Shown here piece by piece: positions 9,064 through 59,158 of a stretch of DNA of 64,000 bases (within the stretch, counting starts at the first letter, position 1; every line of letters starts with the position of its first letter). The notes under the pieces were generated by a model that saw only the letters and a list, made by a program, of their open reading frames with translations, was not told the DNA's origin and did no database searches. The position numbers and the translations under genes are program-made. Origin of the DNA: Cyathus striatus (Eukaryota > Basidiomycota > Agaricomycetes > Agaricales > Nidulariaceae); assembly GCA_025738555.1 (NCBI GenBank), contig JAOVFP010000011.1:124001-188000 (forward strand). Direction: 5' to 3'.

Positions 9064-9094
9064 GAGGTCATTGCAGTCCCCTATGGAATTAGGT

Positions 9095-9345
9095 AGAGTC
9101 TACCTAAAGTCTAGTAGTCTACCTGGACTTCACCTGGACTTCACCTGGACTTCACCTGGACTTCACCTGGACTTTACCAGAACTCTAGGAATATTGTTTC
9201 CTTGTGTATAGTGCATGTGAGTCCATGTGAAGTTCAGGTGAAGTCCAGGTAAAGTCCAGGTACATTCCTGGACTTCAGGTAGACTACTGGAAATCACCTG
9301 GAAATTACTGATTTCAGCCACTGAACTTCAGGTAGAATACTGATT
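9095..9345. repeat. E2 left subterminal array (11-bp aggtaga/ccaggact units)
   Basis: Tandem 11-mers appear first as ggacttcacct (9127-9175) and then, in inverted orientation, as aggtgaagtcc and aggtaaagtcc (9230-9290). This is the counterpart of the array at 33170-33635. The two orientations make the block largely self-complementary. Confidence 0.85.
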
Positions 9346-9429
9346 TTAGCAATACTTTATACTAGGTAATTAGAACAAGTTTACTTACTTACTTATAATA
9401 TATTAGAAAAAAGTAAACTAATAAATAAA

Positions 9430-9518
9430 TGTAACCATCACAAATTGAATGCAGGACTTCATGCATAACTGGCGCCTAACAAGCACCAACACTGCAGCTT
9501 TATTGTTATGCCAAACAG
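9430..9518 (-). promoter_or_regulatory. E2 tRNA-like module (degenerate A and B boxes)
   Basis: On the minus strand, TTTGGCATAACAATAAAGC (about 9498-9517) resembles a Pol III A box and GCATTCAATTTG (9441-9452) a decayed B box. A T-rich stretch follows. The module sits in the same place and orientation (facing the nearby transposon end) as the better preserved ones of E1, E3, E4 and E5. That positional conservation is the main support, because the boxes alone are weak. Confidence 0.45.
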
Positions 9519-9689
9519 GTGTTATTAACTAAGTGAACCGACACCCTATAGCCATTGTCAAACATCCATCTTACACTGCCACAACTGCCAGCCCACCTCT
9601 GTTGCATCATCATTATCGCCAACAATGTATAATTTCCTCTTCCCTCCCTCCTCTCACTGCCACCCATGTCCTTTGTCTTGCAAATGACA

Positions 9690-9697
9690 AGCACTGC
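9690..9697. repeat. Left 8-bp target duplication of E1 (AGCACTGC)
   Basis: AGCACTGC directly precedes the GAGCTC terminus of E1. The same octamer at 18182-18189 follows the other terminus. Confidence 0.9.
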
Positions 9698-9714
9698 GAG
9701 CTCTTTACGCTTAG

Positions 9715-9935
9715 CCAGGTGTTCTGTACGGATCCGTGCGGATTCCGTACGGATCCGCGCGGATTCCGCAGAATCTGTACTTTTTGAAAATGGCTGGGCT
9801 ATCACTATATTGAATGCGAAATTCCGTACGGATTCTGTATGGATTCTGTACGGAATTTTAAATTCCGTACGGAATACGCAGAATTCCGTAATGAAGACTT
9901 TATTGGAATCCGTACGGATCCTTACAGAACTTATT
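9715..9935. repeat. E1 left subterminal array (11-bp ggattccgtac units)
   Basis: Tandem 11-mers of the form tacggatccgt, gcggattccgt and acggatccgcg appear, decaying inward to agaatctgtac and gaattccgtac. The motifs CGGATCCG and CCGTACGG are palindromes, so the array reads alike on both strands. Confidence 0.9.
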
Positions 9936-9961
9936 AATTATTTATATTAATTATTTACATG

Positions 9962-10055
9962 AAAATAAAATGCGCCGTGTGTGGTTTGAACCCTCACTGT
10001 GCTCAATGATTTGTAATCAAATATATCGCGCGCTAAACCATCTAAGCCAACATAT
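9962..10055 (-). promoter_or_regulatory. E1 tRNA-like module, Pol III A and B boxes
   Basis: The minus strand reads TTGGCTTAGATGGTTTAGCG (A box, from 10050) and, about 50 bases on, GAGGGTTCAAACCAC (B box), then GGCGCATTTTATTTT, which holds a T4 run. Spacing and boxes are those of a tRNA or tRNA-derived promoter. The arms do not fold into a clean cloverleaf, so it is tRNA-like and not a functional tRNA gene. It points outward, toward the GAGCTC end of E1. Confidence 0.65.
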
Positions 10056-10189
10056 GTTTCTCATCGTCGCATAACCGCCCATAACATGATGCTTGTCCGG
10101 CTGTCGTTAACTGGCGCATACCCGGGTGACGCGTCACTAGCGCTCACTGCTCAGCGCTGTCAGCGCTTGGTCAGCGCCGTCTCGTCTCG

Positions 10190-11090
10190 CTCCCACCACC
10201 TTCGCTCTCACCACCGTCTTCGCTTCCACCACCTTCGCTCCCCGCCGTCACCTTCGCTCCCACCACCACCTTCGTTCCCACCACCATCTTCGCTCCCACC
10301 ATCTTCGCTCCCGCCGCCGCCTTCGCTCCCACCACTCCTCGTCTCCTTCGACAACCTTCGACCGTTCTCCTCCACGCGTGAACGTGAAGAAGCCAACTAA
10401 GCCGCTGGCAAGGAGCGTGCCGTTTCCCCTCCCCCCTCTCGTGTCCTCGTCTCGCAAATGACGAGGACGAATCCTCGCACCTCGTCTCGCAAGTGACGAG
10501 CGTGCGTTCCTCCTCCCTTCTCGCACCTCATCTCGCAAACGACGAGGGTGCCGTTTCCCATCCCCCCTCTCGTGTCCTCGTCTCGCAAATGACGAGGACG
10601 AATCCTCGCACCTCGTCTCGCAAGTGACGAGCGTGCGTTCCTCCTCCCTTCTCGCACCTCGTCTCGCAAACGACGATGGTGCCATTTCCCCTCCCCCCTC
10701 TCGTGCCCTCGTCTCGCAAATGACAAGGGTGCCATTTCTCCTCCCCCATCTCGCGCCATCGTCTCACAAATGACGAGGACGAACCTGCGCACCTCGTCTC
10801 GCAAACGACGAGGGTGCCGTTTCCCCTCCTACCTCTCATGTCCTCGTCTCGCAAATGACGAGGACGAACACCCGCACCTCGTCTCGCAAGTGACGAGGGT
10901 GCCGTTCCTCGTCCCCCTCCCCCTCATTCGTATCTCCTCGTCTCGCAAGCGACGAGGAAGAGCCTGCACCTCGTCTCGCAAACGACGAGCGTGCATCCCT
11001 CCTCCTCCTCTACACCTCGTCTCGCAAATGACGAGCGTGCTGTTCCCCCCCCCTCCCCTACTTCCTTGTCTCGCAAGCGACGAGGAAGAT
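10190..11090. repeat. E1 GC-rich minisatellite (ctcgtctcgcaaatgacgag units)
   Basis: From 10190 to 10340 a ttcgctcccaccacc repeat occurs. From 10433 to 11090 a 30-36-bp unit centred on cctcgtctcgcaaatgacg is repeated about 18 times. Each unit is partly palindromic (CTCGTC...GACGAG). The long frames found on both strands simply translate it. It corresponds in position to the arrays of E2 (18300-19020) and E3 (30490-30920), and the E2 version is the same motif with CG to TG/CA changes. Confidence 0.88.
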
Positions 11091-11109
11091 CATCCTTTCC
11101 TCTGCCTCC

Positions 11110-11830
11110 TCGTCTTGGGGGAGGGGAGGGGAGAGCGAGGGAACGGGAAGGATAGCGGGGGGAAGGGGAGGGGAGGGAGAGCGAGGGAAGGGGAGGAGGG
11201 AAGAGCGAGGGAAGGAGAGGGGGGAAGAGCGAGGGAAGGAGAGGGATAACGGGGGAAGGGGATAGCGGGGGAAGGGGAGGAGAGGGGAGAGCGACGGAAG
11301 GGGAGAGATAGCGGGGGAAGGGGAGGGGAGGGGAGGGGAGGGACAGCGGAGGAAGGGAGGGGAGGGAAGGGAAGGGACAGCGGAGGGAGGGGATAACGAG
11401 GGAAGGGGAGAGGAGGGGGGAGTGACGGAAGGAGGGATGGCGAAGGAAGTGGAGAGCGAGGGGAGGCAAGGGACAGCGGAGGGAGGGGAGAGCGACGGAA
11501 GGGGAAGGGGCGAGGGGAGGGGACACCCGCCCTCGATATGCGCTTGCCACCCGTATCCCCACCCTCAACGCCCCCCTCGATGTGCGCCCGCTACCTGTGT
11601 ACCACCACCATCATCCCTCAATGCGCGCTTCCATGCGCGTACCCCATTTTCACCCCCTTCAACGCCCTCCCCCATCGTCACCCCCCTTCAACCCCCTCCC
11701 CCATCGCTACGCCCCCCTTCAACACCCACTCGACGCGCACCTGCCACCCGCATACCCCACTATCACCCTCAACGCATACATCCACCCGCGCACATGCGTC
11801 GTCACCCCCTTTTACTCCCCCCTGTCTGCC
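11110..11830. repeat. E1 purine-rich then C-rich strand-asymmetric tract
   Basis: From 11110 to about 11525 the plus strand is almost pure G/A (ggggaggggagagcgaggg units). From 11530 to about 11825 it is C-rich (caccccccttcaaccccctc). Adjacent opposite-skew tracts of this length could form unusual structures (inference). No gene is supported here. Confidence 0.8.
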
Positions 11831-12417
11831 GTTTCCAATATTAGTATATGCTAGAGTAGATATTCATGTAGTAGTCATGTACACCGTAAATACTAAAATA
11901 ATATAAACATTTATAACATTCATTCCGATGCATTAAGTACATTCAGAATGATAGAGTAGCAATCTACATCCTATGAATATGCTGCCACAGTAAAACAATC
12001 TCACGTTGAACCATGTAATCGCTTGTCTTACATTACAGTATGTTCGTTATCGCATACAATCTCATGTATCAATAGATTGCCACACCTAAGCGATCTCACA
12101 TTCAATTGAATTCTGAGCTCAATGACCTTGTGATTGCTTATGCTACACTACAGCATGCTCGATATCATGTCCTATGAATAACTCAACTGGCACCTGATAA
12201 ATTTGTGATCGCCGCGCTAATCTGTCATACTTATTTATAAATGAGCTGTAAGGTCACAGACACAGGATTAATAATACAGTGTGAACGACACATGTATTTA
12301 GATCTCCGCATGCCACATGCACTTTTCTCCTCTCAACCACCATTTTCGTTACACATCGCTACACATCACTACAGATCTACACACATTGGCACTTACCAAT
12401 CCTCTCTACTACACAAT
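11831..12417 (+). other. E1 gene A upstream region
   Basis: This stretch is AT-rich with no domain. It links the C-rich tract to the gene A start at 12418 and should hold its promoter. Short C-rich ctctctactacacaat precedes the ATG, a common fungal 5' leader style. I see no clear TATA or known operator. Confidence 0.4.
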
Positions 12418-14669
12418 ATGCCACCTCGCAGATCCACTCGCAACAAATCCACTAGTGATAGTGCTAATAACCCACCAGCCCCAGCAAAGCCTTGCAAGCG
12501 TGCTATTTCTTCAACAGATCCTACTATGCAACCAGATAAAAAAAAGGGTAAAAAGGCAAATAAGGTGGATGAAGGACTTGGAGAAGAGACTGATACTACA
12601 AAGAAGAGGGGGAAAAAGGGAAAAGGACGGTGTGTAATAACTTACTTATGAAGAAATTTTTAACTCAATTTTTATTTATTAGTAAAACAGCAATGCAGCG
12701 CATTGCAGAAGACTTGAAAGCTACTTCACCAGTGACATTGACTAGTGCTGAACAGAACATTATCGAGGATGGCACTTCTGTTGCACCCCCTAAGCGCATC
12801 CGTGATGCTGTCATGCTTAGTTCCAGCTCCTAAGCCTTCAGGTACCACAAGTGGTCGTATTCGGCGCCCTGAGCCACACTATATTGAGAGTACTGAGGAT
12901 GAGGACAGCAATAGTAACTCTAATAAAGAAGATACTAATGAAAGTGACACTGGTGAAAACAATGCCAGTAAAAGTAATGCTGATGAAAGTAATGCTGATG
13001 AAAGTAATGCTGGTGAAAGTAATGCTGATGAAAGTAATGCTGGTGAAAGTGATGCTGGTGAACAAAGTGAACAGGACACTGGCAACCAAAATATTGGAGA
13101 TAATGCTCATGCAGAGGGCACAGATAATAGCAAAAGTCAGGACCTTGAGAGTATTTGCAACAATAGCAGAAATATTGATCACAATCAGGACAATGAGAAT
13201 GGTCAGAAACAAAGTGAAGAGCATACTCTTGACAAGAATAGTGGGGATACAGATACTGCTGAAGTACAGACCAGTGAGAACACTCATGATCAGAGAGGAG
13301 AGAACCCCTATTCTGAAATAGATGTTCATATGACATCTCCACCAAGGAAAGGAGTTATTTTCAATAAGAGCACTGAGGGTACTACTTGCATCCAAAGCAA
13401 TGAGAATAATGATGTACATATGAGTAGTGAGATTCAGCAGAGCAAAGGAAATTATATAGGTGATACCCACATGGCATCACCACCAAGAAATGAGGTCTAT
13501 AATTTACAGGGATCCTCTCGTGTTACTGGTAAGTTTTTTTTTCTGTTATAAGGAGAATAATAAATTTTAACATGCTACTAAGGTGGATTTATGCGTCATC
13601 GTGCTCAAGGAAATGTATATAATAATGCTGACTTTGAGAACATTGAGGAGCAGCCAACCTATCTAGAACATATAAAGGGAACTGTATACTTATATATTTC
13701 AAATGCTGATCCAACATATCTCCAAGTATCAAACATGAAGTCAATGACATTTATCAAGGTTTCTGTTTCAGTAAATTCTATGCAACCCATTCTGAAAGGG
13801 TTGGCTAAGAAATATAGCCCTATTGCTGAATCTGAACAGTGGTTCTTTATTGTTGATAATGATAGTCCAAGTTGGCGTCTTTTAGGTAGCTATGATTGTG
13901 CTATTGAGGACAATGAAGAGTTTACATGGATTCAGAAAGAACAATATATTTTGCATGTTTTATGTGTAAGTGTATTTTATCTGCATTTATACAATCTTGA
14001 ACTCATAAATATAATTAGTCTTCATTTCGTGTTTCAGCTAGGCATGACTCAATGTCAGCTACAGCTCCATCTCGATCTGTATCACTTTCTATCCAAAGCA
14101 GATCTGTGTCTATGGTGCCATCTATTGTAACAGAAGCAAATGTAGAGTCTCAGACAATTACTGCCAGACTTGGCATTCATTCTGATGATCTTAATCGCAC
14201 TTATGAGGATGGAGTAAGAGGTCAATACCAGAAGTACATGGTTACTCTTAAGTATTTGGATAAATATAACACAATGATAAAGGACAATGAATGGGAAGGA
14301 AAACACCTTAAGAAAAAAGAAATTATAGATATTTTTCTTTCCTATTCATATTTTCAGTCCAATCATACCAAGCTTTTCACTAAGCTCTCTAATTATCCTC
14401 TTTTGTTGGAGTGGATGAAAGGAGAGAGTGATGCCCCATCAGACTTGAAGGCATGGGGATATGAAAAGACACAGAGATATACATTTGAGGATCTTAAAAC
14501 ATTTTATGAGAATGGAGGGACACTTGATCCAGATAAAGCAGTAAGAAAGAATGCTAAGGCAAAGGGAAAATATAAAATGGAGAAAAGAGAGAAGTATAAT
14601 AAAGATGAGGAGGATGAGGATGAGGAGGATTGTGAGGATGATGAGGATGATGAGAATGATGAGAATGAT

Positions 14670-14701
<32 letters not shown>

Positions 14702-14843
14702 AACAGTGAAGAGAAAGAAGAAGAATGATAAAATAAAGGAGAAGGGGAAAGGAAAACAGAGTGAGAAAGAGAAGGGAAAGAGTAAAGGTAAAGGAAAGAC
14801 TTTAGAAGTTAAGAAGACAAATAAGAAGAAAGCTAAAGAGTAA
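12418..14843 (+). CDS. E1 gene A: acidic, Lys-tailed partner protein of the CxC5/CxC6 gene
   Basis: I do not recognise the family. The start at 12418 opens MPPRRSTRNKSTSD, a basic N-terminus with a KKKGKK run. The probable introns are 12630-12690, 13529-13582 and about 13965-14040. A coding tandem repeat (NADES/NAGES units, about 12960-13075) lies in an acidic linker. Next is a block shared by all four copies (GSSRVTGGFxxxRAxGNxxNxAD, split by an intron) and a WxLLGSY-type segment. The C-terminal half has the conserved LLEWMKGESDAP...WGYEK motif, a long Asp/Glu run and a Lys/Gly tail. A one-base frameshift lies between about 12800 and 12835. The gene ends about 100 bp before gene B on the same strand. 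The charged tails suggest a nuclear, DNA- or chromatin-binding partner; that is inference. Confidence 0.7.
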
Positions 14844-14943
14844 GTTGATTTAGTTTTGAATGTCTGTTTGGTATACATTTCCAATCTTATCAATGTAGTA
14901 TAAAATTTGAAATCTCTGTATTATATTTGATATGTCAAATCCT

Positions 14944-17338
14944 TATGCATTTCCTCCTTCACAAGCAAAGTGTCCTGTATGGTTTTCTAAGTCTAAGTTC
15001 CATGCTAATGGAATTTATTCTCATGTTCACCATAATATTGACACTTAATAATTGGATACAATGTGGAAATAAAACTACAAATTTACACATTTGGATTATT
15101 TTAATAATGTTGCCAGGAGTTTCAGCAAACATGCAGCCCTTCCCTGATATTCCATTTAAAACTTTCAGCAAATTTATTAGTAGCAATTATAGTTCTGAAA
15201 TTTCCCTGTCAACAGCTTTGGCAATACTTTTTACAGTCACACATAATTGTGACTTATTAAGTCTTCATGCAAGGCAATTCAATCCTAGGTATCCAGAGGA
15301 AAACAATGTACAAATGACTGCTTGGATGCTCACTTTATCTAGAGCATTGCAAGTTCATCTTGGAGAGAGATGTAACAAATTATTTAAAGATGAGCCTAAT
15401 GATGAAAGGGATACAGTTTTAGCATTGAGCTTAGATAGCTTGATGAAAACTCTAAAACTTAATCCAATTGGATCATCTGGAAGATTTAAAGGAAATTTAA
15501 AAGTAGTATCTCATAAAGAGATTTCACCTCATTTGTTATTTGCCCTGTAACTGCTGTATGTGTAACAAATACATGCCCTCATTAGCATTGCACTTATCAA
15601 CAACTGCAAGGGATATACCTTCAGTTACATTAATTCGGGGTACTGAAACTGTAAAAAATGTTCAAGTACTTACCGGAATATGCAACAGATGCAAAACACA
15701 ATACTCTGCTGACAGAGAGAAGGTTTCAATTCCAAATAAAAAAAATACCAGAGTGTACCTTAATTCTGCAAAGTATGTGAAGATAGGACAGTCACTGTGG
15801 GTGGACAGAACATTTTCAAATGCAGCTGTAAATGCAATTTATAGTTTTCATGCATCAGCTGCTGCTTATACAGAATTTTGGAACAATAGCTTTTCTGATG
15901 AACAGAGTATCACTCGCAGACAAATTTGGCAGGCATTTATTCAAGAAACTGTTAGAGCTTTGGCCTCTTCAAGAGACATAAATTTGGAAGTAGAAGATGG
16001 TCTCTCAATTGATAATCTTACACGTGAAGCATTTTCTTTACTTGGTGATAAAGGAATTATTCGATCTGCAGATAAGCACACATGTTCTGAGTGCACACAT
16101 GCTTATAGAAGCAAGTCCAATGCAATATCAGATGTTGACTCTGCTGGTGTGGTAGGAGTTGATGAAAACAGAGTAGATCCTGATCTTGTACAATCTGAAA
16201 GTACACAGAAGGATATGAACTCAGTAAACATACAAAGAGCAGTAGAAGATATAGAAAATAATAATGCAACAACAAATGAGAATGAATATGCTCCAGTTAA
16301 AATGGTTGTATTAGATGGTATCATGATGGGTCCAACACATTGTGCATTTGAAGGATGTACAAGTGAGTTACATAATGCACGTGGAGGAGTTTTCTGTGAA
16401 GTGCATGAAGCCTTTTATGGTGCATGTTGTCGTGTTCAAGAGTGCACTAACATGAAAAAGCAGGGTACTCAGGCATGTAATAATCACCAAGAGGAGTGGA
16501 AGAGATTTCAATCAACTCGTAACACTTCTCATCATGCTGGTGTAAGACGAATGCTTCAGCGTCCAGGAGAACAGCTCCCATGGAATACAGTTAGACCAAG
16601 AAATATTCAGCCACATGATGAACAACAGTCACCAAATAATAAAGTAAAGAATTACTTTACTCCAGGTAAATTCTACTGTGTGGAAACAATATGTGCACCT
16701 TGTGGTGTTGTTATTGCCTGGACAAAATTTGAGGGAGCAGAATCACCATCCAATATTATGAAATTTTTGGAGGAAGTATTTCCTACTGAAGAGTCCAGGC
16801 CAGATTATGTATGCATTGATAAGGCATGTCTGGTACTAAGATATCTTCTTAATGAAGCAAGAAGAGAGCAATGGGAAACCTGGAAAAAAACTACAAGATT
16901 TAGTGTAGATAGCTATCATTATACAAATCACAGAGTTAAAGACTTCCTCTGCAGAATATTCTGCAATCCAGCCCCACTAGATGGATCTGCTCCAAATCTG
17001 GTTGTAACTGATGTTGACAATAATGGAAATCCATATTTGAAAAGAGCTTTTAATACACAGGTAAGATACATATTATAATTGTTTCAAAATATTTTTAAAA
17101 CTACTACTTGTTATAGGCATGTGAACAGCTCAATGCTTGGCTTGGTGGTTTTGAATCTACTTTAAAAAAAATGACTCCAAGCAATTTTGATTGGTTTTTA
17201 CATACCATGTTGTTTTATCACAGTAAGAATGTTATAGATAGGCAAGCAAGAAGAAGAAGACAAGAAGCTAATGGAATGGAAGTGGAAGAAGATGTGGCAG
17301 AGAATGATGACTTTCCAGCAGAAGATATTGTTCTCTAA
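14944..17338 (+). CDS. E1 gene B: CxC5/CxC6 protein, candidate transposase
   Basis: This encodes a protein with the CxC5 and CxC6 cysteine clusters named for association with KDZ transposases. The start is uncertain. A hydrophobic N-terminus (IWIILIMLPGVSA) precedes FPDIPFKTFSKFI, and LLSLHARQ follows. The CxC5 cysteines begin at about 15540. Further blocks are GICNRCKTQYSADR, FSNAAVNAIYSFHASAAAYTEFW and CSECTHAY. VVLDGIMMGPTHCAFEGC (Asp at 16314) opens CxC6, and YVCIDKAC (Asp at 16818) is followed by VDSYHYTNHR. After an intron at 17061-17116 comes ACEQLNAWLGGFE (Glu near 17123). These acids could form a DDE triad (inference). Two small frameshifts near 15537 and 15590 break the frame; otherwise it is open for over 500 codons. 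Confidence 0.82.
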
Positions 17339-17553
17339 ATAACTAAACTCATGTATTTGTAATCACATCTGGTAGCACATACAGTACAGTTATGCTTCAG
17401 CTAATATTGTTTGGTTTGTTTAGAAAAGGGTTTGAGGTGTGGTAAAATGTGGTAGTGATGCACCAGAAAAGGTATCAGAAGATGTGGTAAAATAAATTGA
17501 CATTTGAAGCTGGTAAAGTTCCATAAATGAAGAATTCTTCACAAAATCTGTAA
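17339..17553. other. Spacer between gene B and its duplicated tail
   Basis: This is AT-rich sequence after the gene B stop, with short ggtgtggtaaaatgtggtag repeats at about 17430-17490. It probably contains the gene B 3' UTR. Confidence 0.4.
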
Positions 17554-17878
17554 GGAATCCATCCATATTTGAAAAGAGCTTTTAATACACAGGTAAGAGC
17601 ATATATAATAATGATATAAAATGTTTTAATAACTACTTCTTAATAATAGGCATGTGAACAGCTCAATGCTTGGCTTGGTGGCTTTGAATCCATTTTAAAA
17701 AAATGGCACCACATAACTTTGATTGGTTTCTGCATGCCATGTTATTTTATCATAGCAAACATGTTATACAAAGGCAGGAAAAAGAAAGAGACAGGAAGTT
17801 ACTGATATTGAAGTGCAAGGTGATGTAGTAGATGATGATGATAATGATAGTTTTCCAGCTGATGATATTGTTCTTTAA
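17554..17878 (+). pseudogene. Tandem copy of the gene B 3' end, including its last intron
   Basis: This repeats the end of gene B: the YLKRAFNTQ segment, the intron (gtaagagcatat...aataatag), then ACEQLNAWLGGFES, YFIIANM-like sequence and an acidic tail ending ADDIVL before a TAA. One base is lost in an A-run near 17703, shifting the frame. Since the intron is present, the copy arose at DNA level. It has diverged from the tail at 17117-17338, so it is not a very recent duplication. Confidence 0.85.
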
Positions 17879-17984
17879 AAAATACATACATAGCTTCACA
17901 TTTTAGCCAAGTATAGGTAGAAATGATTATGAATTAACAGTTTTTGTAGTGTTCATTGAGATTTTAAACAGGAAAATTAAGGTA

Positions 17985-18165
17985 TTAAACAGATCTTACA
18001 GATTCTGCATAAATCTACACAGAATCCATGCAGAATATGTATGGAACATGCACAGAATTATCACCTATAATAATAAAAATAGCCACTATATAAATTCTGT
18101 AAGGTATCTATACAGGTCTGTACGGGTCTGTACGGATCCGCACGGATCCGTACAGACCTCTTGGG
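17985..18165. repeat. E1 right subterminal array (11-bp units)
   Basis: Units are acagattctgc, agaatccatgc and ggaacatgcac, then, next to the terminus, tacgggtctgtacggatccg in near-palindromic form. The last 60 bp match the left array in inverted orientation. Confidence 0.85.
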
Positions 18166-18189
18166 GGAGTGTAAATTACTGAGCACTGC

Positions 18190-19022
18190 ATTGTCCCCTC
18201 TCCTTCTTCTCCACCTCCACCTCTCCCTCCTCCTCCTCTGCCTCTTTCCAGCAAGTGAAGAGCATGGCTGTCCGGCTTCATCTCTCCTCTCCTCAATGGT
18301 CCTTGCCCTCAAGCATCTCCTCCTGGCTCCCTCTCCCTCACCCTTGTCTGCAAGTGACAAGGGCATGCGCTTTCCCCCTCTTGTTTCCACTTGCCCTCAT
18401 CTCACAAGTGACAAGGGCAGGTGTCTCCTCCTGGTCTCCTCTCCATCACCCTCGTCTGCAAGTGACGAGGGTGTGCGCCTTCCCCCTCTCATTTCCACTC
18501 ACTCTTGTCTTGGAAGTGACAAGGGTGGACATCTCTTCCTGGCCCCTCTCCCTCGCCCTTGTCTGCAAGTGACGAGGGTGCATGCTTTCCCCCTCTGTTC
18601 CCACTCGCCCTCGTTTCACAAGTAATGAGGGCGAGCATCTCCTCCTAGCTCCTTCTCCCTTACCCTCATCTGCAAGTGACAAGGGCACGTGTCTTCCCCC
18701 TCCATTCCCACTTGCCCTCATCTCGGAAGTGATGAGGGCAAGCATCTCTTCCTGGTCTCTCTCCCTCGCCCTTGTCTGCAAGTGATGAGGGCATGTGCCT
18801 TTCTCCATCTCCGCCTCCTCCACCCTCGGCTCTCATCTCGCAAGTGACAAGGGCATGTGCCTTCCCCCATCCCACCCTCGTCTTGCAAGTGACGAGGACA
18901 CTGCCTTCCCTGGTCTTCCCCCGTCTCCCTCTCTTCTGCCCTTGTCTCGCAAGTGATGAGGGTGCATGCCTTCCCCCATCTCCCTCTCCTTTGCCCTTGT
19001 CTCACAAGTGACAAGGGTGCTC
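18190..19022. repeat. E2 minisatellite (ctcgtctgcaagtgacgag units, CpG-decayed)
   Basis: About 18 units centred on ccctcgtctgcaagtgacga occur between 18320 and 19020, with short copies left of E1 at 9660-9690 (ttgtcttgcaaatgacaag). It is the same motif as E1's minisatellite, but many CG dinucleotides read TG or CA (cttgtc...gacaag). The difference is what greater age under CpG methylation would give. Frames here are translations of the repeat. Confidence 0.88.
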
Positions 19023-19333
19023 TTGTACTATTTTTATGGGAAATTGATAAGGTGTTTGGAACCACTATTGGAACACCTTATTGATTTCCCCTCATCCTTT
19101 GTTGCCTCCATGAGAAATCTACCTATATATAAATAGTTTATGTCTGTATATAGTTAAATAAAGGTTTATTAATAGATGTACACATGGATTAAGTGAGGCC
19201 AAAGTGGCAATTATAGATATAATGTGATCTTCATATATACAAGCATGTGCCCAGATAACTTCTTTCTTCCCTTCCGCCCACTTCTCAGGCTACTATTCAC
19301 CTGTTGTCACCACAGTTCATACAAATTTCAAAC
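19023..19333 (+). other. E2 gene A upstream region
   Basis: AT-rich DNA with ctgtatatagttaaataaagg and no domain; the likely promoter and leader of gene A (E2). A short inverted pair (ataaggtgtttgga / ggaacaccttat) lies at about 19048-19082. Confidence 0.4.
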
Positions 19334-21350
19334 ATGGTTAATACTAGAAAATCATCAAGTGCTGCTGCAAAGGCTGACAGTGACCAGAGAGCAACTAAAT
19401 CTGGTTCAAAAGCATCTGCAACACATGGAAAGGGAGCTAAACAGGCCAAGAGTAAGACTAATAAGTAAGTAATATTTAGATCCATATTTGAACTACTACA
19501 TTTAAAATTTGGAAATAAAGGAAAACCTCAGTGGATAGACTTGAAGATGATCAAAATGCTGAAATTCCAAAGAAATTTACTCCATAACTCTTGTTTTACT
19601 ATATATTTATTATACTTTAATGTTTTTATAGAGTAGAGCAAGTTCTTATGGAGGAGAACACATCTGTTGCCCCCCCTCCTCATTTTTCTTCAAGAGAGTC
19701 TACTCAAGTTCTAGTGGGAGAGACTGGTAACTTGCTTAATGAAGATGAGACTCTTATGCCACTGGGTTCTCAATTAGAAACTATGAATTTGAACCTTATA
19801 AGTGCTGCTGATGCTCCTGATAAATCTCTGGAAGGCTCTATGCCACTGGGTTCTGAGTTAGAAACTATGGATCTGAACTTTATGAGTGCTTCCAATACTT
19901 CTGATCAGTCTTTGGAAGAGTCTGAAAATTCTATGAAGATTATTGCTAATATCTCTGATGAGTTTGAAGAAGAGGACACTGATGCTGATAAATCTGAAGA
20001 TAAAGATTATAATGGTTCTAGTAAAGTGAGACAGAGTCAGATGCTGAAAAAGAATCTATGAATATTGACACAGACATTATGCCAAAGAAAGGAATTCCCA
20101 CTCTAAAGTGTGGTCAAGCTCCATCTAGTCCAACTGATCCAACTGATGCTTACTGTTCTAGAAGTAAAGTGTCTAAGCGCTCAGAGTCCCACAGTTCAGC
20201 CATGTCTTCTCTTAGTAAGGATGAGCTTCAAGGAGCATCATGTACAACTGGTGGATTTTCTTGTGGAAGAACTATTGGAAATGTATATAACTATGGTGAT
20301 GATGAAGATGGTAAGAATAATAGTTATAATTATGAGATTTTGGTAGCTAAATATTCATATGCATAGATCCATTCACCATGCCTTCAGAAAATATCAAAGG
20401 ACAAATTCACCTGTTTCTGAAGCCTGAAGCACCAAAGCCTGATTTCATTATAACAGACCAAGAGCCATCATCTGATCTTCAAGAAGTACTAGAGAATATA
20501 AGTGAAGTTTATTCACCCATAGCCAGTATGTTATTATTACTATTTATCATCTGAAATATCATCTGATAATTAAAACAGAGAAAAATCCTAGAATATCTTT
20601 GTGTGAGAATGGAAACTGGAGCATTAAAGGCCGCTACATGAATATTAAGGAGAAAAAGTCCAAACTGCCAAATGGCAAGTGGATGATAAGAACATTTATT
20701 ATCTTGAAATATTAGCAGATGGTGCAGATAAGAATGACATTACAACAATGGCAGCACCATCTGGATCTTCTAGTACTGATGAGGAAGTTGTGAAACATTT
20801 AATTATTTCACATTTCAATATCCCTGAGCATTTGATTAAAAGTAAGGGGAAGGAAGATATATGTGCTGTGTATGAAAAGTTTGAAATGATTGAGGATATA
20901 TGGGAGAACAAAAAAGCATCTCTCAGCATCATTCAAACATCTGTCAAAGCTACTATTGATAACAAAGTTCTTATTAGTGTCTTTATGTCACCTTCAACAT
21001 ACTATACTTATCCTTACAAATCTTTTCCCCTTCTTAAATACCATTCACAAATGGTATCTTGGTTGAAAAATGAAGATGGAGTTGATAAGAAAAGTGTCTG
21101 GGGATCTAAGAAGCCAGGATTTTCAACCTTATATGAGATTTTAAAAGGCAAAGAAGCAGCAGCTGAAGCAGCTGAAGATCGTAAAAATCAACAAAGTAAG
21201 GGAAAGGGCAAGGAAAGAGAAGAGGGTGAGACAGATAATAATGAGGAGGGAGTGAAGGAGAAAGATCAAGAAGATATGAGTGAAAATAAAGGAAAGGGAA
21301 AGAGTAGGAAGTCACACAAGAAGGACAAGGGAAAGTCCAAAAAATTGTAA
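19334..21350 (+). CDS. E2 gene A: acidic, Lys-tailed partner protein
   Basis: This is a homologue of gene A of E1; function unknown. The start at 19334 gives MVNTRKSSSAAAKADSDQ. Likely exons are 19334-19465, about 19632-20310, 20367-20525 and 20579-21350. Exon 2 has TSVAPPPH, as in the other copies, and two copies of an MPLGSxLETMxLN repeat (19757-19900) in the acidic linker. The shared block GASCTTGGFSCGRTIGN lies before the second intron. SWLKNEDG...VWGSKKPGF corresponds to the conserved C-terminal motif, and a Lys/Gly-rich tail (KGKGKSRKS) ends the protein. Frameshifts near 20020 and 20680 suggest decay. Gene B follows on the same strand after 540 bp holding a tandem repeat. Confidence 0.7.
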
Positions 21351-21389
21351 GAGTTTTGTTATTACTTGCTTTCAATAGTTGGGTTTTTG

Positions 21390-21840: not shown

Positions 21841-21889
21841 TGGCTATAAATTTTGTTGTGATTCTGTGAATTGTGAGAACAATTTTCTA

Positions 21890-23909: not shown

Positions 23910-23917
23910 AATAAATG
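23910..23917. repeat. Left 8-bp target duplication of E3 (AATAAATG)
   Basis: AATAAATG directly precedes CAGTAATTTATG. The same octamer at 31636-31643 follows the GAGCAC end. Confidence 0.88.
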
Positions 23918-23937
23918 CAGTAATTTATGCTCCCCCA

Positions 23938-24420: not shown

Positions 24421-24504
24421 TGATACAACTAGCATCATATACATATATTGAAAATGAACAACAAATATTGTACTAACCTATACTACTTAGCAGCACTTGG
24501 TGTA

Positions 24505-42051: not shown

Positions 42052-42072
42052 CAGTACTTTGCACTCCCCCCC

Positions 42073-44656: not shown

Positions 44657-44760
44657 TATTGCATAATAGATTTGAAGAAGCCATACACAGATATAGAGAA
44701 AACTAAAAGTACATTGGATACAAATTTAAAAGTAAAACATGCTATCTTTCACAACTTTAC

Positions 44761-47583
44761 TTACTTATTCTTTATACCAGATCCTTTCTTACCCTTTCCC
44801 CCCTCTGCTTTCTGCTTTCCCTTTCCAGCACTAATACCCTTCTTTTTCTTAATCCAGTTTTCCAAGTCTGTTCTAGTAAATCCTGCTGTCTTCTCCAATC
44901 CCCATAATTCATGAGTTGCTTTATTATCTGGTGGGGTTGCAGTACTCAACCACTCTTCCATGTCAGGGTAGTTGGATACAAATTTAAGAACTTTATTCCA
45001 ATGATGCCAAGCAGTCCCAGCAGCTCCAAACATTGTGTGTAAGTCTCTCATAATTGGCTTATCCATATCAGAGGGCCACATCTGTGGACTTGTATCTACC
45101 AAGTGTTTGACTCATTGTACCTCTTGGTAGATTTTCCATGCTATCTGAATAGACCAGTTCTTATGTCCAAGAAGGGACTTATCCACTTTATAAACAGATA
45201 TAATAAGTTCTTGTTTTTTAGTAAGTCCATCAGGGATATCAAGATTCTCATCAGTAGCAGCAGAGGCAGAGGCATTTTCACTGCTCTTAGTAGTTGTTGA
45301 TGCTCCATAGGAACTGCCCACACTTCTTGCTAAGTGGAAGTTGACAGTTTCTTTCACAGAAATCTAAGAAATTATGAGAAATTAGATATGAATATAAGTT
45401 AAAATGACATTACAGCAGCAAGATATAACACCAGATCATTTATTCGAGAAGTCCACTGAATAGTATCAGTGCTTTCAATATCATTGAAATGTCCAAATAT
45501 AATCCAAGTATCACGCTCAGTGTCAAAATTCATAATAAGCCTATTTTGAACTATGTAATATTAGTCAAATGATAACATTAAGTCAAAGTTAATCTTACAT
45601 TTAATGATAGGCATTCTTTTTGCAACTGAGTCCAGTACCAATTTAAGGCAAGAATTTACTGTAGTTGGCACAGCCTGAGGTGGTGTTTCAGTATTCAACA
45701 GGGTTGGATTAAACTTAGGAGAATCATCAGAGACTGTGATGTAGACAAACCCCTGAGGGTTTACAACCATAGATGAAATTTCATTTGTATTATCAGCAAA
45801 CCGAAAGTTGTTTCCTTGAGCTTTACCCCGGAATATGCCTCCTAGAAATTTATTTCAGAACTTCTATTACCAAGAAAAAAATAAGAAGAAATACCAGTAG
45901 TTCTGGATGCACCCTTCAAATCTTTCTTTGTAGGTATGGCATCAGATGCCAATGTGGAGTCTATAAACATTTTAGAAAAGGTACAAATAAAAATATAGTA
46001 CATACCAATACTCATTGTATCCACATCTTCCTCCTCAACCTGTGCCAAGCTGGTGTTCTTCTCATCTATAATCATTTCTTCTATTTCTTCTTCCACATCA
46101 TTATCATCATTGTTATTATTATCACTATCACCATTGCTATCACTGTCTTTATCTTCTGTATCACCTTCATTTTCCTCATCATTATCCTGAGTAATGCTCT
46201 TAGTCTCACTGGCATGTCCAACTTCAAAGTTATTATCATCAGATTCACTTGATTGGCTTGAAGTTGTAGCCAAGACCTCAGAAGTACCAGGAATTTCAGA
46301 AGGGCCAGGAATTTCAGAAGTCCCAGTAATCTCAGGAGTCCCAGTAATCTCAGAAGTTTCAGTAATCTCAGGAGCCCCAGTAATCTCAGAAGTCTCAGTA
46401 ATCTCAGAAGCACCAGCAGTCTTGGGCTGCATAGGTGGTGCAATAGAAATTGACATTTCCTGGAGTTTCTTCATAGCACTAAAATTATTGCATTAGAAAA
46501 ATATAGTGCAAATGAAATAAATACTTATGCCTTGGATTTTTCTTTATTAGCTGCTGTCACGACCGTGCCCCTAGCCTGACTTGGCGGCGGAGTACGAGAA
46601 GGTGACTGCGGAGAAGCGAGGAGTGAGTATGAGACGAAAGCGGAGAACGATAACTCAGGGGGTAGGACTTCGGTTTCAGCTTATGTGCTGCGCCCCTGAG
46701 ATTCCCGGTCCTGGATTTCGGAGTAAGGGCAAGCCCTTCGGAGAAGACGAGAGACGGAAGACGAGAGGTGTAACTCAAGTCAGACGAAAGGGTGAGGACA
46801 TAGTTCAATACGAAACTAAAGACTAAAGTACAAATCGAGTACTACTTAAATACTAGAGACTCGGAGTAAGTAAAGGCCGCTGGCCTTGGCCAGCGGAGAA
46901 GTACGGTCAGGGTAGGCGTATGTAGAATGAAGACTATAACTAATTAAACATAATAAAACGCATTGGAGAAGTGAGCGCGTATGGCAGTGTAAAGTAAAAC
47001 TGATAGTGGCGCACTTAAGAATGATAAGTGACTCACTATGAGATGTATACTACACTACTGAGGGGATAGCTCAGTAGAATGGAAGAAAGGAAACAAGAGT
47101 AATCTATGTACAGTAATCAGTATGTAATACTAAGAGCGTAATCAAAGTCTGGAGTAAACAAAGGGAAAGGCGGAGTAAGAGCATAGGGGTCTGGAGGTAG
47201 GCGATATGGGATATGACAGCTGCATTACTTGCAGCTTCATCTTCCTTATCCTTATCACCAGCAGTTTTACTTAAATTTAAGTCAGACATTGAACTATGAA
47301 AATTAATTAAAATAGTTGATACATACCATCCACTTCTCCCCCTCTTTTTCCCACCTCTTCTCCTTCCACCACTTTTCTTTTCCTCCTTTGCACTGTTATC
47401 CACTGTTTCTTCACCAGCTGTAATGTCAGGCTTCTTGGCAGCTGGTTCAGCTGTGGTATCTGCACCAGATTGTGTGCGTTTGCGGCCTTTAGATGCAGGT
47501 GGCTCATTGTGAATCAAGCCACTGCGAGAAGTTGGAGGTGAGACTGGGGTATTGTTATTTTTTTTGCTGTTTTGAGATGGCAT
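44761..47583 (-). CDS. E4 gene A: acidic, Lys-tailed partner protein (split by a solo LTR)
   Basis: The start at 47583 gives MPSQNSKKNNNTPVSPP and a basic exon ending GGKKRGRSG (donor at 47326). Exon 2 (47293 down) encodes SDLNLSKTAGDKDKEDEAAS and is cut by the LTR at 46555-47218. Exon 3 has SISIAPPMQPKT and a coding repeat (TSEITGxPEI units, about 46410-46270), then an acidic stretch. GASRTTG is followed, across an intron, by GIFRGKAQGNNFRFAD. A segment with WIIFGHFNDIE follows, then EEWLSTATPPDN...ELWGLEKTAGF and a short Lys/Gly tail. One TGA lies near 45112. Domain order equals the other gene A copies; function unknown. Confidence 0.75.
46555..47218. mobile_element. Solo LTR, 664 bp, with 5-bp target duplication GCTGC
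   Basis: It starts TGTCACGACCGTGCCCC and ends GGGATATGACA, so its ends are inverted (TGTCA/TGACA). GCTGC flanks both sides (46550-46554 and 47219-47223). It carries no coding sequence and retains many CpG, hence is young. Its removal restores exon 2 of gene A (E4). It is related to the decayed LTR at 35061-35811. Confidence 0.85.
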
Positions 47584-48059
47584 ATTTGTTGAAAACACAG
47601 AGGAAGAGTTAAACAAAGAGTTGAACAAAGTCAAAGTCAGAGATGGTGGTTGAGAGTTAAGCAGGGGGGAACACAATGAACAATCCTTCAACAGCCTGTG
47701 TCCCATGTGTACACACACATGTCATGTTGACAGTCTTCTGATCTTATCCAAAAATATCTTAATGACTCGGGAATCAGTTCTATTGGTAGACTAATATTAT
47801 CTATACTAAATTTAACTATGATGCACACCATTTTCGATGCCAACTCCCCATGCCGATGATTCCGAGACTATTCTAAGGGTCACATTGATAACACAGTACA
47901 CACACACTGACAGGCGAGGGAGAGGGTGGACATACACAAACAGATCTATGCACAGATGCTCTGAACATCCTCAAATCTCAAATCTTCCCCCCCTCCTTAC
48001 CCCCTAGCAATACACAAATTTAGCACGGTGCATGAACACATACAGGCCGAGGGAGGGGG
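47584..48059. other. E4 gene A upstream region
   Basis: AT-rich near the gene, becoming GC-richer toward 48060. It should hold the gene A promoter on the minus strand. No further gene. Confidence 0.4.
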
Positions 48060-48530
48060 GAGACGTATGCTAATGTATGCTAGCTAATGTACACGTATGC
48101 ACACACAGACACGGGAGACATACGCTAACGCACGCACGCAGACACAGACACCGAGAGATAGGGGAGACATATGCACACACACAACTGATGCTGAGGGGGG
48201 AGACATATGTACGCACGCACACACACATGCAACCAGCAAGGGAGGGAGGAGACACACGCACACACAGACGCCGAGGGATAGGGGAGACATATGCACACAC
48301 GCACACAACCAGCAAGGTAGGGGGGAGACGTATGCTAACACACGCACACAGAACAGACACCGAGAGAGGAGACATACGCTAATGCACACATGCAGAACAG
48401 ACACCGAGAAAGGAGGAGACATACGCTAATGCACACATGCAGACACAGATGCTGAGGGAGGGGGGAGATGTATGCTAACACACAGACGCAGACAGAGGCT
48501 GAGGGAGGGGGGAGACGTATGCCAGATGCT
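48060..48530. repeat. E4 minisatellite (gagacatatgcacacac units)
   Basis: About ten units of 45-60 bp combine ggggagacatatgc, an (AC)n or (CGCA)n stretch, cagacaccgag and a G-run. It occupies the place held by the ctcgtc...gacgag arrays in E1 and E2 but is unrelated in sequence. Long frames on both strands are translations of the repeat. Confidence 0.88.
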
Positions 48531-48539
48531 GGGGCTGAA

Positions 48540-49660
48540 AGGGGCGGACTGCTGTGTCGATGTGAGAATGGTAGCTGTAATAGATAATGAAATATCAATT
48601 GTAGGGATATAGATACGTGCTGAAAAGACTTACCTGCCAGCAATGAACTGGATAAAGCAGGCGGTGCTCTATGACAGGCCTCAGTGCACACATGTCCCCC
48701 CTAGCATCGTACATGCACACGTTAGCCGCCTATGGATGACGTGGCATTGATAAGCCCATGGGGATGAGAACAGTGCTGGATGGACGGCAGATGGCAGAGC
48801 GGGCATGGAGTCGTCGAGGAGGGGGCGGTAACGCAGCATCGGTGTTTCACGTTGACGCTGGGGCTGAAAGGGGTGGGTGTTGAGAGGGGGGCTGCTGTAG
48901 TTAAGCCGCCAACCAATGACGTGGCATCGATAAGCCCACATGGGACGAGGTGGATGGCTGAAAGGGGCAGATGTTGAGAGGGGGGCTGTTGTGGTCTGAC
49001 GTAGAATGTGTTGCCGCTTGTGAAGCTTGGAGGGTTAGCATGGGGAGGGGGAGGGGGAAGGAGACATACCATACTACCCAATTGCCTGAGCACAGCTACC
49101 CCGTAAACCCACTAAATGTGTCCGAACACACTACCCCCTACCAGACGACAAAACCGAGGGAAGTTGAGGTGGGGAAGACGATTCTGTGTGTATTGATGCA
49201 TCATGGTATGTTGACGACGTGTGTATCTTGCGGTGTCGAACGCAGCGATACGAAGCGCGCGTGTGGGAGTGGGGGCTGTAATTGATAAGGAAGTGTCAGT
49301 TAAGTGGATATGGATATGCGCTAAAAAAAACCTTACCTGCAAGCAACCACCGATGAACGCAGGTGGGTCGACGTGTCGAATGCAATGTTGCCATATCGAT
49401 ATGAAGCGCATATGTGGGAGTGGAGGCTGTAATTGATAAGAAAATGTCAGTTGTGTTATCATAGATACACGCTAAAAAAAGACTTACCTGACTGCAGGTA
49501 GATTGACAATGGTGAGAGTCGACAACAGTGAGAGTCAACAGCGGTGAGGGAGAGGGGAATTGATCCTAGAGAAAGAGTACTCAGTACTCATCGATATCCA
49601 TCAATATCAATCATCTGCGATATGAAAAAAACTTACCGAGCATGAAACAGTGCTCTATGA
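48540..49660. repeat. E4 diverged 150-bp repeats with splice-donor-like CAGGTAAG
   Basis: The block gctgtaattgataagraartgtcagtt...aaaaaa...cttacctg recurs at about 48560-48645, 49270-49340 and 49425-49490, with a decayed copy at 49600-49640. On the gene strand (minus) each carries CAGGTAAG, a perfect 5' splice-site consensus (GGTAAG in the last). The region also has the direct repeat cgccaaccaatgacgtggcatcgataagccca at about 48725 and 48905. Confidence 0.7.
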
Positions 49661-49852
49661 CATGGAGCTGGATGGAGAAAAGTGAGGGAGCGGAATGGTG
49701 GTGGTGGTGGTGGTGGTGGTGGAAGGACAGTGGAGGATACGTGGTACGACAGTGAACACATGGGAAGTAATTTGAGGTTGCGCAAAAACGGTTGGTGGGT
49801 AGAGAGTATATGGTGACTATATAGTATATAGTGCTATTGGTAAATAAGGTCA

Positions 49853-49948
49853 TATGGCGCAATGGTTAAGTGTCCCATTCATGGGAAAATATTGGCTGGT
49901 TTTGCCAGGGAGAGTGTTTGAATACCGGTGTGAATGCTCTTTTTTTTT
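49853..49948 (+). promoter_or_regulatory. E4 tRNA-like module with T9 terminator
   Basis: TGGCGCAATGGTTAAGTG (49855-49872) is a close A-box match. GAGTGTTTGAATACCGG (about 49912-49928) is a B-box match (consensus GTTCGANNCC). A run of nine T (49940-49948) follows as a Pol III terminator. TTGGCTGGTTTTGCCAG between the boxes could form a variable arm. It points toward the GAGCTC terminus of E4. Confidence 0.7.
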
Positions 49949-49984
49949 ATATGCTATACTATATATAGTAAGAGTAATGTTCCA

Positions 49985-50235
49985 TTCACCCATTCACACT
50001 TCATGTAAAATTCACGTGAATTACACATGAATTTCACATAAATTGAGAGTGAATGTGAATCTGGAATGTGAAAATTCACGTGAATATTACATGAAACTTT
50101 CACCTAAAATTCATGTGAATAAATGAAGTTCATGTGAAATTCACATGAAATAATTTGCTGCATTCTCACTCAAAAATTGAAAAAAATAATGGGTAAAAAG
50201 TTCACATGAAATTCATGTGAAATTCAGGTGTAAGG
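49985..50235. repeat. E4 right subterminal array (11-bp units)
   Basis: Units gaattacacat, gaatttcacat, gaaattcatgt and gaaattcaggt occur, ending at the run of ten G next to the terminus. Confidence 0.88.
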
Positions 50236-50257
50236 GGGGGGGGAGTGTAAAGAGCTC

Positions 50258-56644: not shown

Positions 56645-56652
56645 CAAATGGG
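56645..56652. repeat. Left 8-bp target duplication of E5 (CAAATGGG)
   Basis: Directly before CAGTACTTATCCC; identical octamer at 59151-59158. Confidence 0.92.
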
Positions 56653-56675
56653 CAGTACTTATCCCTCCCCCACCC

Positions 56676-56965
56676 TTTCACCTAAACTTCACGTGAATTT
56701 CACATGAACTTCACCTATTCACATGAATTTCATGTAAAATTCACATGAAATACACATTGAAGTAACATTTTCACATGAAATTCACATGTTTTCATGTGAA
56801 GTCCACATGAATTTCACCTTCATCTAGGATGTTCCAAAATCACAAAAATTTGGTGAAATTCAAGTGAAGTTTAGGTGAAAACTAAGTGAAATTTAAACAT
56901 GAAATTCACATGGAATTCACATGGAATTCACATGAAATTCATGTGAAGTACACATGAAATAGAGT
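56676..56965. repeat. E5 left subterminal array (11-bp ttcacatgaaa units)
   Basis: Units gaatttcacat, gaaattcacat and gaattcacatg occur, mostly in uninterrupted 11-bp register. Confidence 0.88.
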
Positions 56966-57059
56966 TAATCAATCAAATATATTATACCATCTAACAAGTA
57001 ACACAAAGTCAACAAGTGAGAACAAGATCAAAGCTTCATTCAAATACATTTTTAAACTA

Positions 57060-57485
57060 CTTAGGCCTCCCCCATTCGCTCCCCTCGCTATGCGCTATGC
57101 ATTCGCTCTCCCCTCGCTATACATTCCCCACCCCTCGCTGTGTTCTCCCCCCCTCGTTACGTGCTATGCGCTATGCATTCCCCCCCTTGCTATGTGTTCC
57201 CCTCCCCTCGTTATACATCCCCCCCCCTCACTATGCGCTCCCCTCCCTCGCTATGTGTTCTCCCCCTCCTCGCTATACGCCATGCATTCCCCCCCCCCCC
57301 CCCCCCTCACTATGCATTCTCCCCCCCCTTGTTATGCGCTATGCGCTATGCATTCTCCCCCCCTTGCTACGCACTATGCACTCCTTCCCCCCCCTCGCTA
57401 TACGTCCCCCTCCTTGCTATACGTCCCCCCCTCGCCATATGTCCCCCCCCTCTCGTTATGCGTCCTCCTTGCATCCATCTCCCCC
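57060..57485. repeat. E5 ctcgctatgcgctatgcattccccc repeat
   Basis: Units of 25-35 bp join ctcgctatgcgctatgcattc and C-runs of up to 20. Proline-rich frames here are repeat translations. Confidence 0.88.
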
Positions 57486-58335
57486 TATCGTTGTCGTTGT
57501 CACGACAGAGGGAAGGACGGAGGCGCTGGATGGCATGGCGTCGTTGTCGTTGTCACGGCGCAGAAGGAAGGACAGGGATGCTGGGTCATGTGGTGTCGTC
57601 ATCGTCGTCGTCAAGGCGCAGAGGGAACGACGAAGGCGCTGGGTGACGTGGCGCTCATCGTTACCTCGCCTCGCTATGCACCCCCGCCACTGCCACCCCT
57701 CCCGGTGGGCACTGCCCTCATCGTTGGTGTTTGGTATTTGGCGATGGCGTCATCGTGCTGCGACGCAAGGGGGAGGACGGGGCGCTGGGTGAGATGAGAC
57801 GCGTGGGGAGAAGGTGTCCTCACCAGCTGGGCGGCATGACGTCGTCGTGTCGCAACGCAGAGGGAGGATGGGGGCACTGTGAGAGGTGGCGGGGATGAGA
57901 CGTGTGGGGAGAAGAGACGGAGGACAGCGCACTTACCAGCTGGTTAGCAGGAGTCGTCGTCGTCGCGACGCAGAGGGGAGGACGAAGGCGCTAGGTGAGA
58001 TGAGACACGTGGGGGTGTCGCGACGCGGAGGGAGGACGGGGACGCTGGGAGAGATGAGACGGAGGACGGTGTCCTCACCGGCTGGGTGACATGGCGTCGT
58101 TGTCGTCACAACGCAGAGGTGAGGACGGGGGTGCTGTGAGACGTGGGCGCTGGGTGACGTCGCGGGGACGAGACGCGCGGTGACAGTAGCTGTCCTCGCT
58201 GGCTTGGTGGCATGGCGTCGTCGTATCGCGACGCAGAGGGGAGGACGGAGGCGGTGGGTGATGTGGTGACAATAAGAAACGGGGGGAGAGGACGCCTGGA
58301 GGACGCTGTTCTCGCTAATGTCCTCACCAGCGTGC
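57486..58335. repeat. E5 GC-rich repeat (tggcgtcgtcgtcgcgacgcagagg units)
   Basis: Eight or more units of about 80-100 bp include ggcatggcgtcgt, a cgacgcagaggg core and gaggacg...cgctgggtga. The core TCGTCGCGACG is palindromic. Similar units occur in E3 at 29930-30330. Confidence 0.85.
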
Positions 58336-58700
58336 ATGCGCTGTGGATGCTGTCATTAGCGTTCATCCTCATCGTTCACGCCGTCATCGACTCACCTGAT
58401 ATGGACAACTCCCTCGTTGTCCCCCTCACTCCCCTCCGTCTCCTTTAACCGTTCGTTGTGAGCCCTGGCATCTTGTCTGCCTCGCGTGTGCCCATTGCGT
58501 CGTCTGAATACGAGGAAGGGAAGAAGGAGGAGGGAGACGGAAGGGGAGCGGAGAGCCTGGGGGAGCGGAGGAAGGGTGATGGTGGATGGGCGGTCGTGAC
58601 GTGGTAACGTCGGAGGGTGCCATTAACCAAAATGGTCCGACACTGCCACGTACGGTTAGATGCTTAACCTATACGCTAATTTCTCCAACTGAAATAATGC
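58336..58700. other. E5 interior spacer
   Basis: GC-rich then AT-rich sequence between the repeat and the tRNA-like module. No gene. Confidence 0.4.
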
Positions 58701-58801
58701 TCGTGTGGTGTAGTGGTATTAGTTGGCTCAACGTGTGAATTTACATTTACGTAATGTTATGTGGGCGAGAGTTCGATTCGTCGTGGTGCCAATAACTTTT
58801 T
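58701..58801 (+). promoter_or_regulatory. E5 tRNA-like module, best-preserved B box
   Basis: TGTGGTGTAGTGGTATTAGT (58704-58723) is an A box and GAGAGTTCGATTCGTCG (from 58767) contains a canonical B box GTTCGATTC. GGTGCCAATAAC and a T5 run follow. The T arm can pair; the intervening region is longer than in a normal tRNA. It points to the GAGGTC end. Confidence 0.7.
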
Positions 58802-58849
58802 ATATAAGTACTATTACATCTACTAGTAGTAGTATCAAACACGGAATCA

Positions 58850-59130
58850 TGTTTACCTGAATTCCATGTGAATGCCAGGTGAAATTCACCTGGTTAATTC
58901 ACGTAGAATTCAGATATTCATGCCTTCATGTGTAATTCATGTGCAATTCACATGAATTTCATGCGGGGTTTTTCACGTGAATTTCATCTATTCACGTTGT
59001 TCCATATGAAATTCATGTGAATCACATGTGAAATTCACATGAAGCAATTTGCAGGGGATTCCCCCAAAATCCGAGAAAATTGAGGTCCAAAACTTCAGGT
59101 GAATTTCACATGAAATTCACATGAAAAGGG
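58850..59130. repeat. E5 right subterminal array (11-bp units)
   Basis: Units gaaattcacct, gaatttcatgc, gaaattcatgt and gaaattcacat occur up to the G-run next to the terminus. Confidence 0.88.
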
Positions 59131-59158
59131 TGGGGGAGAGTAAAGACCTCCAAATGGG

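Follow-up and report, generated by a model that had tools for sequence, protein, structure and literature searches.

The window analysed here, a 64,000-nucleotide (nt) stretch of the Cyathus striatus genome (GenBank assembly GCA_025738555.1, contig JAOVFP010000011.1, positions 124,001 to 188,000 of the forward strand), contains five mobile elements, E1 to E5, and four of these carry a gene for a protein with the cysteine-cluster domains CxC5 and CxC6. With a probability that we put at about 0.84, E1 to E4 belong to a large family of cut-and-paste DNA transposons that encode their own CxC5/CxC6 transposase of the DDE class, and E5 is a non-autonomous derivative of it. The elements and their target duplications, with strands assigned so that E5, which has its CAG end on the left, is oriented as are E3 and E4, are as follows (bp, base pairs).

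E1, 9698..18181, plus strand: full-length, lying within E2; its GAG end, without the C-run, is at 9698 and its CAG end at 18181
E1 duplication AGCACTGC, 9690-9697 / 18182-18189
E2, 9064..33651, plus strand: interrupted by E1 and E3; 8,370 bp net of both
E2 duplication CAATTTTG, 9056-9063 / 33652-33659
E3, 23918..31635, minus strand: full-length, nested in E2; ends also matched by the genome-wide end-pattern searches
E3 duplication AATAAATG, 23910-23917 / 31636-31643
E4, 42052..50257, minus strand: full-length
E4 duplication TGTGAACC, 42044-42051 / 50258-50265
E5, 56653..59150, minus strand: 2,498 bp, non-autonomous, without a CxC gene
E5 duplication CAAATGGG, 56645-56652 / 59151-59158

All five elements are flanked by a perfect 8-bp target duplication, and 8 is the sole length from 4 to 14 at which the flanks agree; the coordinates and duplications proposed in an earlier sequence-only reading of this DNA are borne out in every case. 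That reading had also described matched inverted termini ending in C-runs. The ends are indeed inverted, but they are of two asymmetric types, one starting with CAGTA and the other with GAG, each typically leading into a TTTA..CTCCCCC-like stretch, and the GAG end is decayed in E1, which has lost its C-run, and in E2, where four Cs are left. The lengths of E1 (8,484 bp), E3 (7,718 bp) and E4 (8,206 bp) are similar to that of E2 without its two nested elements. CxC5 and CxC6 both score above the Pfam cut-offs in E1, E3 and E4; E2 has CxC5 above its cut-off and a partial CxC6 below it (25.3 vs 27.5 bits). Neither domain was detected by Pfam in E5, so that four elements carry these genes rather than the five that had been claimed. 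The Pfam scan covered 92 stop-to-stop open reading frames (ORFs) of at least 90 amino acids in E1 to E5, two frames across the left edge of E5 being excluded, and the families matched at E<=0.01 were CxC5 (four ORFs), CxC6 (four ORFs) and one bacterial fimbrial family, the last a weak match (E 0.0067) that we treated as chance. At that threshold none of these ORFs matched any other transposase domain. The earlier statement that the elements hold no other transposase is correct to this extent, but it understated the matter, in that the CxC5/CxC6 protein itself resembles a DDE transposase.

The end patterns were sought across the whole assembly (107.45 Mb, 24 contigs), where the CAG pattern has 87 matches, three GAG patterns have 18, 37 and 38, and reversed versions of the patterns have none. 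Pairing covered the 55 GAG ends from two of the GAG patterns, the 38 of the third being left out, and 45 of the 55 have an inward-facing CAG end within 30 kilobases (kb); an outward CAG neighbour was seen in 2 and a same-strand neighbour in 4. The lengths of the pairs are bimodal, with 20 at 1.2-2.8 kb and 25 at 6 kb or more. When 70 bases were fetched round each end of 39 pairs, an exact 8-bp duplication was present in 30, one with a single mismatch in 2 and none in 7. When flanks were re-paired at random, 152 of 76,023 combinations agreed over 8 bp (one mismatch allowed), as against 32 of the 39 true pairs. Among the remaining six pairs the duplication is exact in E3, E5 and the loci L019 and L020 and has one mismatch in L016; at L018 (G000:C16:574307-584204) it is nine bases long instead of eight. 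Over all 45 pairs there are 34 exact 8-bp duplications, 3 with one mismatch, 1 of 9 bp and 7 pairs with none. A chance origin of the end patterns and duplications is excluded. With 37 of 45 pairs bearing an exact or one-mismatch duplication, copies across the genome do not lack the 8-bp duplication as a class, nor do their ends fall away from the copy boundaries. The consensus of each kind of end comes from 37 sequences, contributed by the five window elements and by those 32 of the fetched pairs whose duplication is exact or has one mismatch. Twenty CxC6 loci were taken from the first 21 rows of the CxC6 candidate list, the row of the window itself being set aside, and ten of them are bounded in this way and have a duplication (L009, L010, L013, L016, L018, L019, L020, L024, L026 and L028); for the other ten no matching end pair was found, the ends being sought in the expected polarity only.

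Empty sites were sought at paralogous places in the same genome by joining the flanks of E4, and those of E5, with one copy of the duplication. The E4 site is represented by three paralogous places, each of exactly 300 nt, with identities of 89, 87 and 86%, and its junction is spanned by eleven further places at 74-80%; two of the 300-nt alignments were viewed, and both are gap-free. For E5, eight places cross the junction; the two alignments viewed are continuous there, one at 86% over 111 nt and the other at 79% over 154 nt. Because the empty sites of E4 and E5 run through the junction, the inserted unit is the element plus one copy of the duplication. Paired ends, genome-wide 8-bp duplications and empty sites together uphold the proposal that the CxC5/CxC6 units are transposons in their own right.

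The CxC5/CxC6 gene, which we call gene B, is the best-conserved stretch of E1 to E4 and lies toward the CAG end. Its copies in the window, with Pfam E values and the means of mapping, are:

Gene B of E1, 15131..17335, plus strand: CxC5 3.1e-21, CxC6 7.2e-17; blastp and tblastn maps
Intron in gene B of E1, 17061..17116, plus strand: GT-AG, 56 nt, immediately 5' of the putative catalytic E codon
Gene B of E2, 21890..32915 (pieces 21890-23545 and 32336-32915), plus strand: CxC5 9.6e-18; tblastn map
Gene B of E3, 24541..26538, minus strand: CxC5 1.4e-26, CxC6 5.2e-18; blastp and tblastn maps
Gene B of E4, 42546..44671, minus strand: CxC5 1.3e-23, CxC6 4.8e-14; blastp and tblastn maps

Frame changes or stops break all four window copies. 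The main open frame of the E1 gene (15507-17078) has a stop inside the last intron and one frame change upstream; the E2 gene has several stops, and its two pieces are separated by E3; the main open frame of the E3 gene (25099-26715) is followed by a frame change and stops; and the E4 gene has two in-frame stops within the aligned stretch. In the main stretches that align, the encoded proteins are 38-44% alike; the gene occupies the same position in each element, and over the longest aligned stretches the proteins are 34-44% identical to an 830-amino-acid open frame at L013. The four key positions are occupied by D, D, D and E in every one of 24 copies (E1 to E4 and 20 loci), as read by tblastn without E being required. 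A GT-AG intron of 47-57 nt lies just before the A-C-E codons in 22 of the 25 sequences searched, a set that includes the gene-less E5, with a search pattern that requires E. Homologs numbered 712; among the 120 listed, [AV]CE[QH]xN occurs in 52, and a pattern with another residue replacing E was unmatched. In the alignment columns many of the other listed homologs appear to end at the intron before E or to read into it, and this intron seems to truncate many database predictions of the gene B protein. D398, D567, D594, H597 and E647 are invariant in 49 proteins picked as complete, 48 of them with E as a selection requirement; D-x-x-H is present in all 49 and in nearly all of 81 proteins not so selected. 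The ratio of nonsynonymous to synonymous substitution (dN/dS) of gene B is 0.26-0.37 in three comparisons among L009, L013 and L026, in which the gene is under purifying selection, and 0.83 for E3 and L019. In E1 a second copy of the last-intron stretch of gene B lies at about 17563-17730, some 530 bp downstream of the first, which suggests a partial tandem duplication.

In an AlphaFold model of the whole gene B protein, D, D, E and the D-x-x-H motif lie on a fold of the RNase H type. CxC6 forms a cysteine-rich insert there that follows the first D, between its strand and the next strand, and some 50 residues, comprising a strand pair besides two short helices, separate the fifth strand from the helix that bears E. 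The sheet was not reproduced in a second model of the whole protein, which was of poorer quality. With its D/D/E residues, its D-x-x-H motif and the RNase H fold of the first model, gene B is most likely the DDE transposase of these elements. Gene B proteins also have, between the second D and E, the C/DxxH motif that together with DDE is a trait of the hAT, MULE and IS256 group. In the accessible parts of two structural and functional reports (PMC7780238, PMC5225508), the DDE residues of MULE, IS256 (ISCth4) and hAT transposases sit in an RNase H fold and a C/DxxH motif comes after the fifth strand, as in the first gene B model; the histidine of this motif touches the scissile phosphate in Hermes (PMC7780238), and mutation of the corresponding histidine lowers transposition of Muta1 by 99.5% (PMC5225508). 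By the same portions of these sources, most ISCth4 copies have 8-bp duplications and Muta1 has 8-9 bp (PMC7780238, PMC5225508), resembling the family of E1 to E5, and Muta1 shares with it the possession of subterminal repeats (PMC5225508). As far as those accounts extend, hAT, MULE and IS256 have a long helical insert after the fifth strand, unlike the gene B model, where the corresponding stretch of roughly 50 residues includes a strand pair and where CxC6 is inserted after the first D. Nor do six full-length gene B proteins match MULE/IS256 or hAT in Pfam.

Full-length copies follow a common plan. They are about 8 kb long, have a GAG-type left end and a CAGTA-type right end with an imperfect inverted repeat of about 19 bp, carry at each end subterminal repeats specific to the family, and contain a poorly conserved gene A followed, toward the CAG end, by gene B. 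The second protein of the E3 element is encoded by:

Gene A of E3, 26891..28942, minus strand (ORFs 27605-28942 and 26891-27361)

The gene A product is a low-complexity acidic protein, and its gene lies upstream of gene B. That of E3 is 95% alike in L019, and partial matches of 26-38% link it to frames in the corresponding position of E1, L009, L013 and L026; dN/dS is 0.28 for E3 and L019 and 0.24 for L013 and L009. Eight elements were examined for subterminal repeats, and each has one of its own at both ends; in 100 shuffles per element no word had two copies at both ends. The repeat GGAGTCCA is common to E3 and L019, and CACATGAA/CATGTGAA are common to both ends of E4 and E5, which fits mobilisation of E5 by an E4-like enzyme. 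We propose that the N-terminal/CxC5 part of the gene B protein would bind the subterminal repeats and that the DDE core would cleave both ends and insert them with an 8-bp stagger, a step seen here as the 8-bp duplication. Short copies such as E5 may be mobilised in trans, since they retain both ends and the repeats.

A remnant of a KDZ element (Kyakuja/Dileera/Zisupton), outside the family and left of E2, also lies in the window:

KDZ-element remnant, 3339..4815, plus strand: CxC2 at 3339-3668 (2.8e-39), KDZ at 4411-4815 (1.1e-23), Pfam

That the CxC5/CxC6 gene is itself a diverged KDZ transposase, and the elements another KDZ branch, is a possibility that we regard as doubtful yet the most serious of the alternatives. 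Pfam labels CxC5/CxC6 as associated with KDZ transposases, and D-x2-C, H-x3-H, C, E and W occur in the same order in the CxC5/CxC6 and KDZ sets; these ordered residues, noticed post hoc, suggest a distant kinship. According to the available parts of PMC12730594 and PMC12810828, KDZ transposons are, like the family of E1 to E5, class II elements of fungi, their transposase resembles the CxC5/CxC6 protein in having zinc clusters, and 8-bp duplications are made by Zisupton, Dileera and Cryptococcus KDZ1 as they are here. The same parts give differences as well: the inverted repeats of Cryptococcus KDZ1-3 are 139-241 bp long, the duplications of Cryptococcus KDZ2/3 are of 4-8 bp, and Kyakuja has 7-bp duplications without inverted repeats. 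Against membership, the KDZ domain PF18758 is absent from all 6 full-length CxC5/CxC6 proteins at E<=10, from the 92 element ORFs at E<=0.01 and from the 120 homologs listed. Alignment of profiles with hhalign gave a probability of 0.7% for the whole protein and 0.2% for the core, with thin profiles of low diversity (Neff 2-3.7) and a KDZ profile that spans only the part from the second D to E. Moreover, KDZ accompanies CxC2 in the window, and likewise in Pleurotus ostreatus in the portion of PMC7641404 available.

It is improbable that gene B serves as a passenger, or as a helper that binds DNA, while the elements are moved in trans by another transposase that makes 8-bp duplications, such as KDZ, which this genome contains, or hAT. 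CAG-type ends with 8-bp duplications are also compatible with hAT. In favour of this reading, the window has the KDZ remnant and, at 60983-61675 (minus strand), a weak match to the hAT dimerisation domain (E 0.0029, under the family cut-off) that may be what is left of a hAT element. A helper role does not sit well with the DDE/D-x-x-H signature and the integrase-like fold of the one model, with the retention of gene B at the same place in E1 to E4 despite a protein likeness of only 38-44%, or with the purifying selection described above. The hAT dimerisation domain PF05699 is absent from the 6 full-length proteins (E<=10) and the 92 element ORFs (E<=0.01), and no MULE domain is among the Pfam matches of the 6 full-length proteins at E<=10. 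Mobilisation with Copia-type long terminal repeat retrotransposons, as proposed for P. ostreatus, where co-localisation with Copia is reported in the accessible text (PMC7641404), is very unlikely for these units. The window elements have short inverted-repeat ends and 8-bp duplications, their 92 ORFs contain no reverse transcriptase or integrase domain (Pfam, E<=0.01), and the retroelement reverse-transcriptase RNase H domain at 53612-54568 (plus strand) lies near E5 but outside the elements.

The P. ostreatus case is the closest precedent for the proposed family of DNA transposons with its own CxC5/CxC6 transposase. The available part of a 2020 report on a sporeless strain (PMC7641404) describes a discrete 6,792-bp insert in the meiosis gene poMSH4, with a 739-amino-acid CxC5/CxC6 ORF; strain comparison demonstrates a real insertion, and the insert has several copies and, in that part of the report, no KDZ gene. 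Like E1 to E4 it is a discrete CxC5/CxC6 unit without KDZ, and it is a probable member of their type; in the same text, which gives neither its ends nor a target duplication, the authors associate it with Copia retrotransposons rather than describing it as a DNA transposon. The sequence-only reading knew of no published description of such elements. This holds for the ends, the duplication and the transposase role, for which our search of the literature (Iyer 2014 being outside its scope) found no description, but not for the insertion of a CxC5/CxC6 unit, which was in print, as the accessible part of PMC7641404 attests.

These findings give a likely function, that of a transposase, to two Pfam families labelled merely as KDZ-associated, and the end motifs allow others to annotate this transposon family. 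In a loose first look at the genome, CxC5 had 471 candidates, CxC6 had 448 and KDZ had 169, of which 150 each were scored, so that a major category of mobile DNA may be wrongly labelled where repeats are annotated by Pfam names. The commercially important sporeless mutation of P. ostreatus can be re-read as a DNA transposon insertion. We lean slightly toward the broader view that CxC5/CxC6 proteins form a separate DDE superfamily, with a zinc cluster after the first catalytic aspartate, which would be the driving force of DNA transposons that rank among the most numerous in mushrooms, the one inserted in the sporeless oyster mushroom among them. If this is true, an overlooked branch of DNA transposons has formerly been known just as a "cysteine cluster" accessory.

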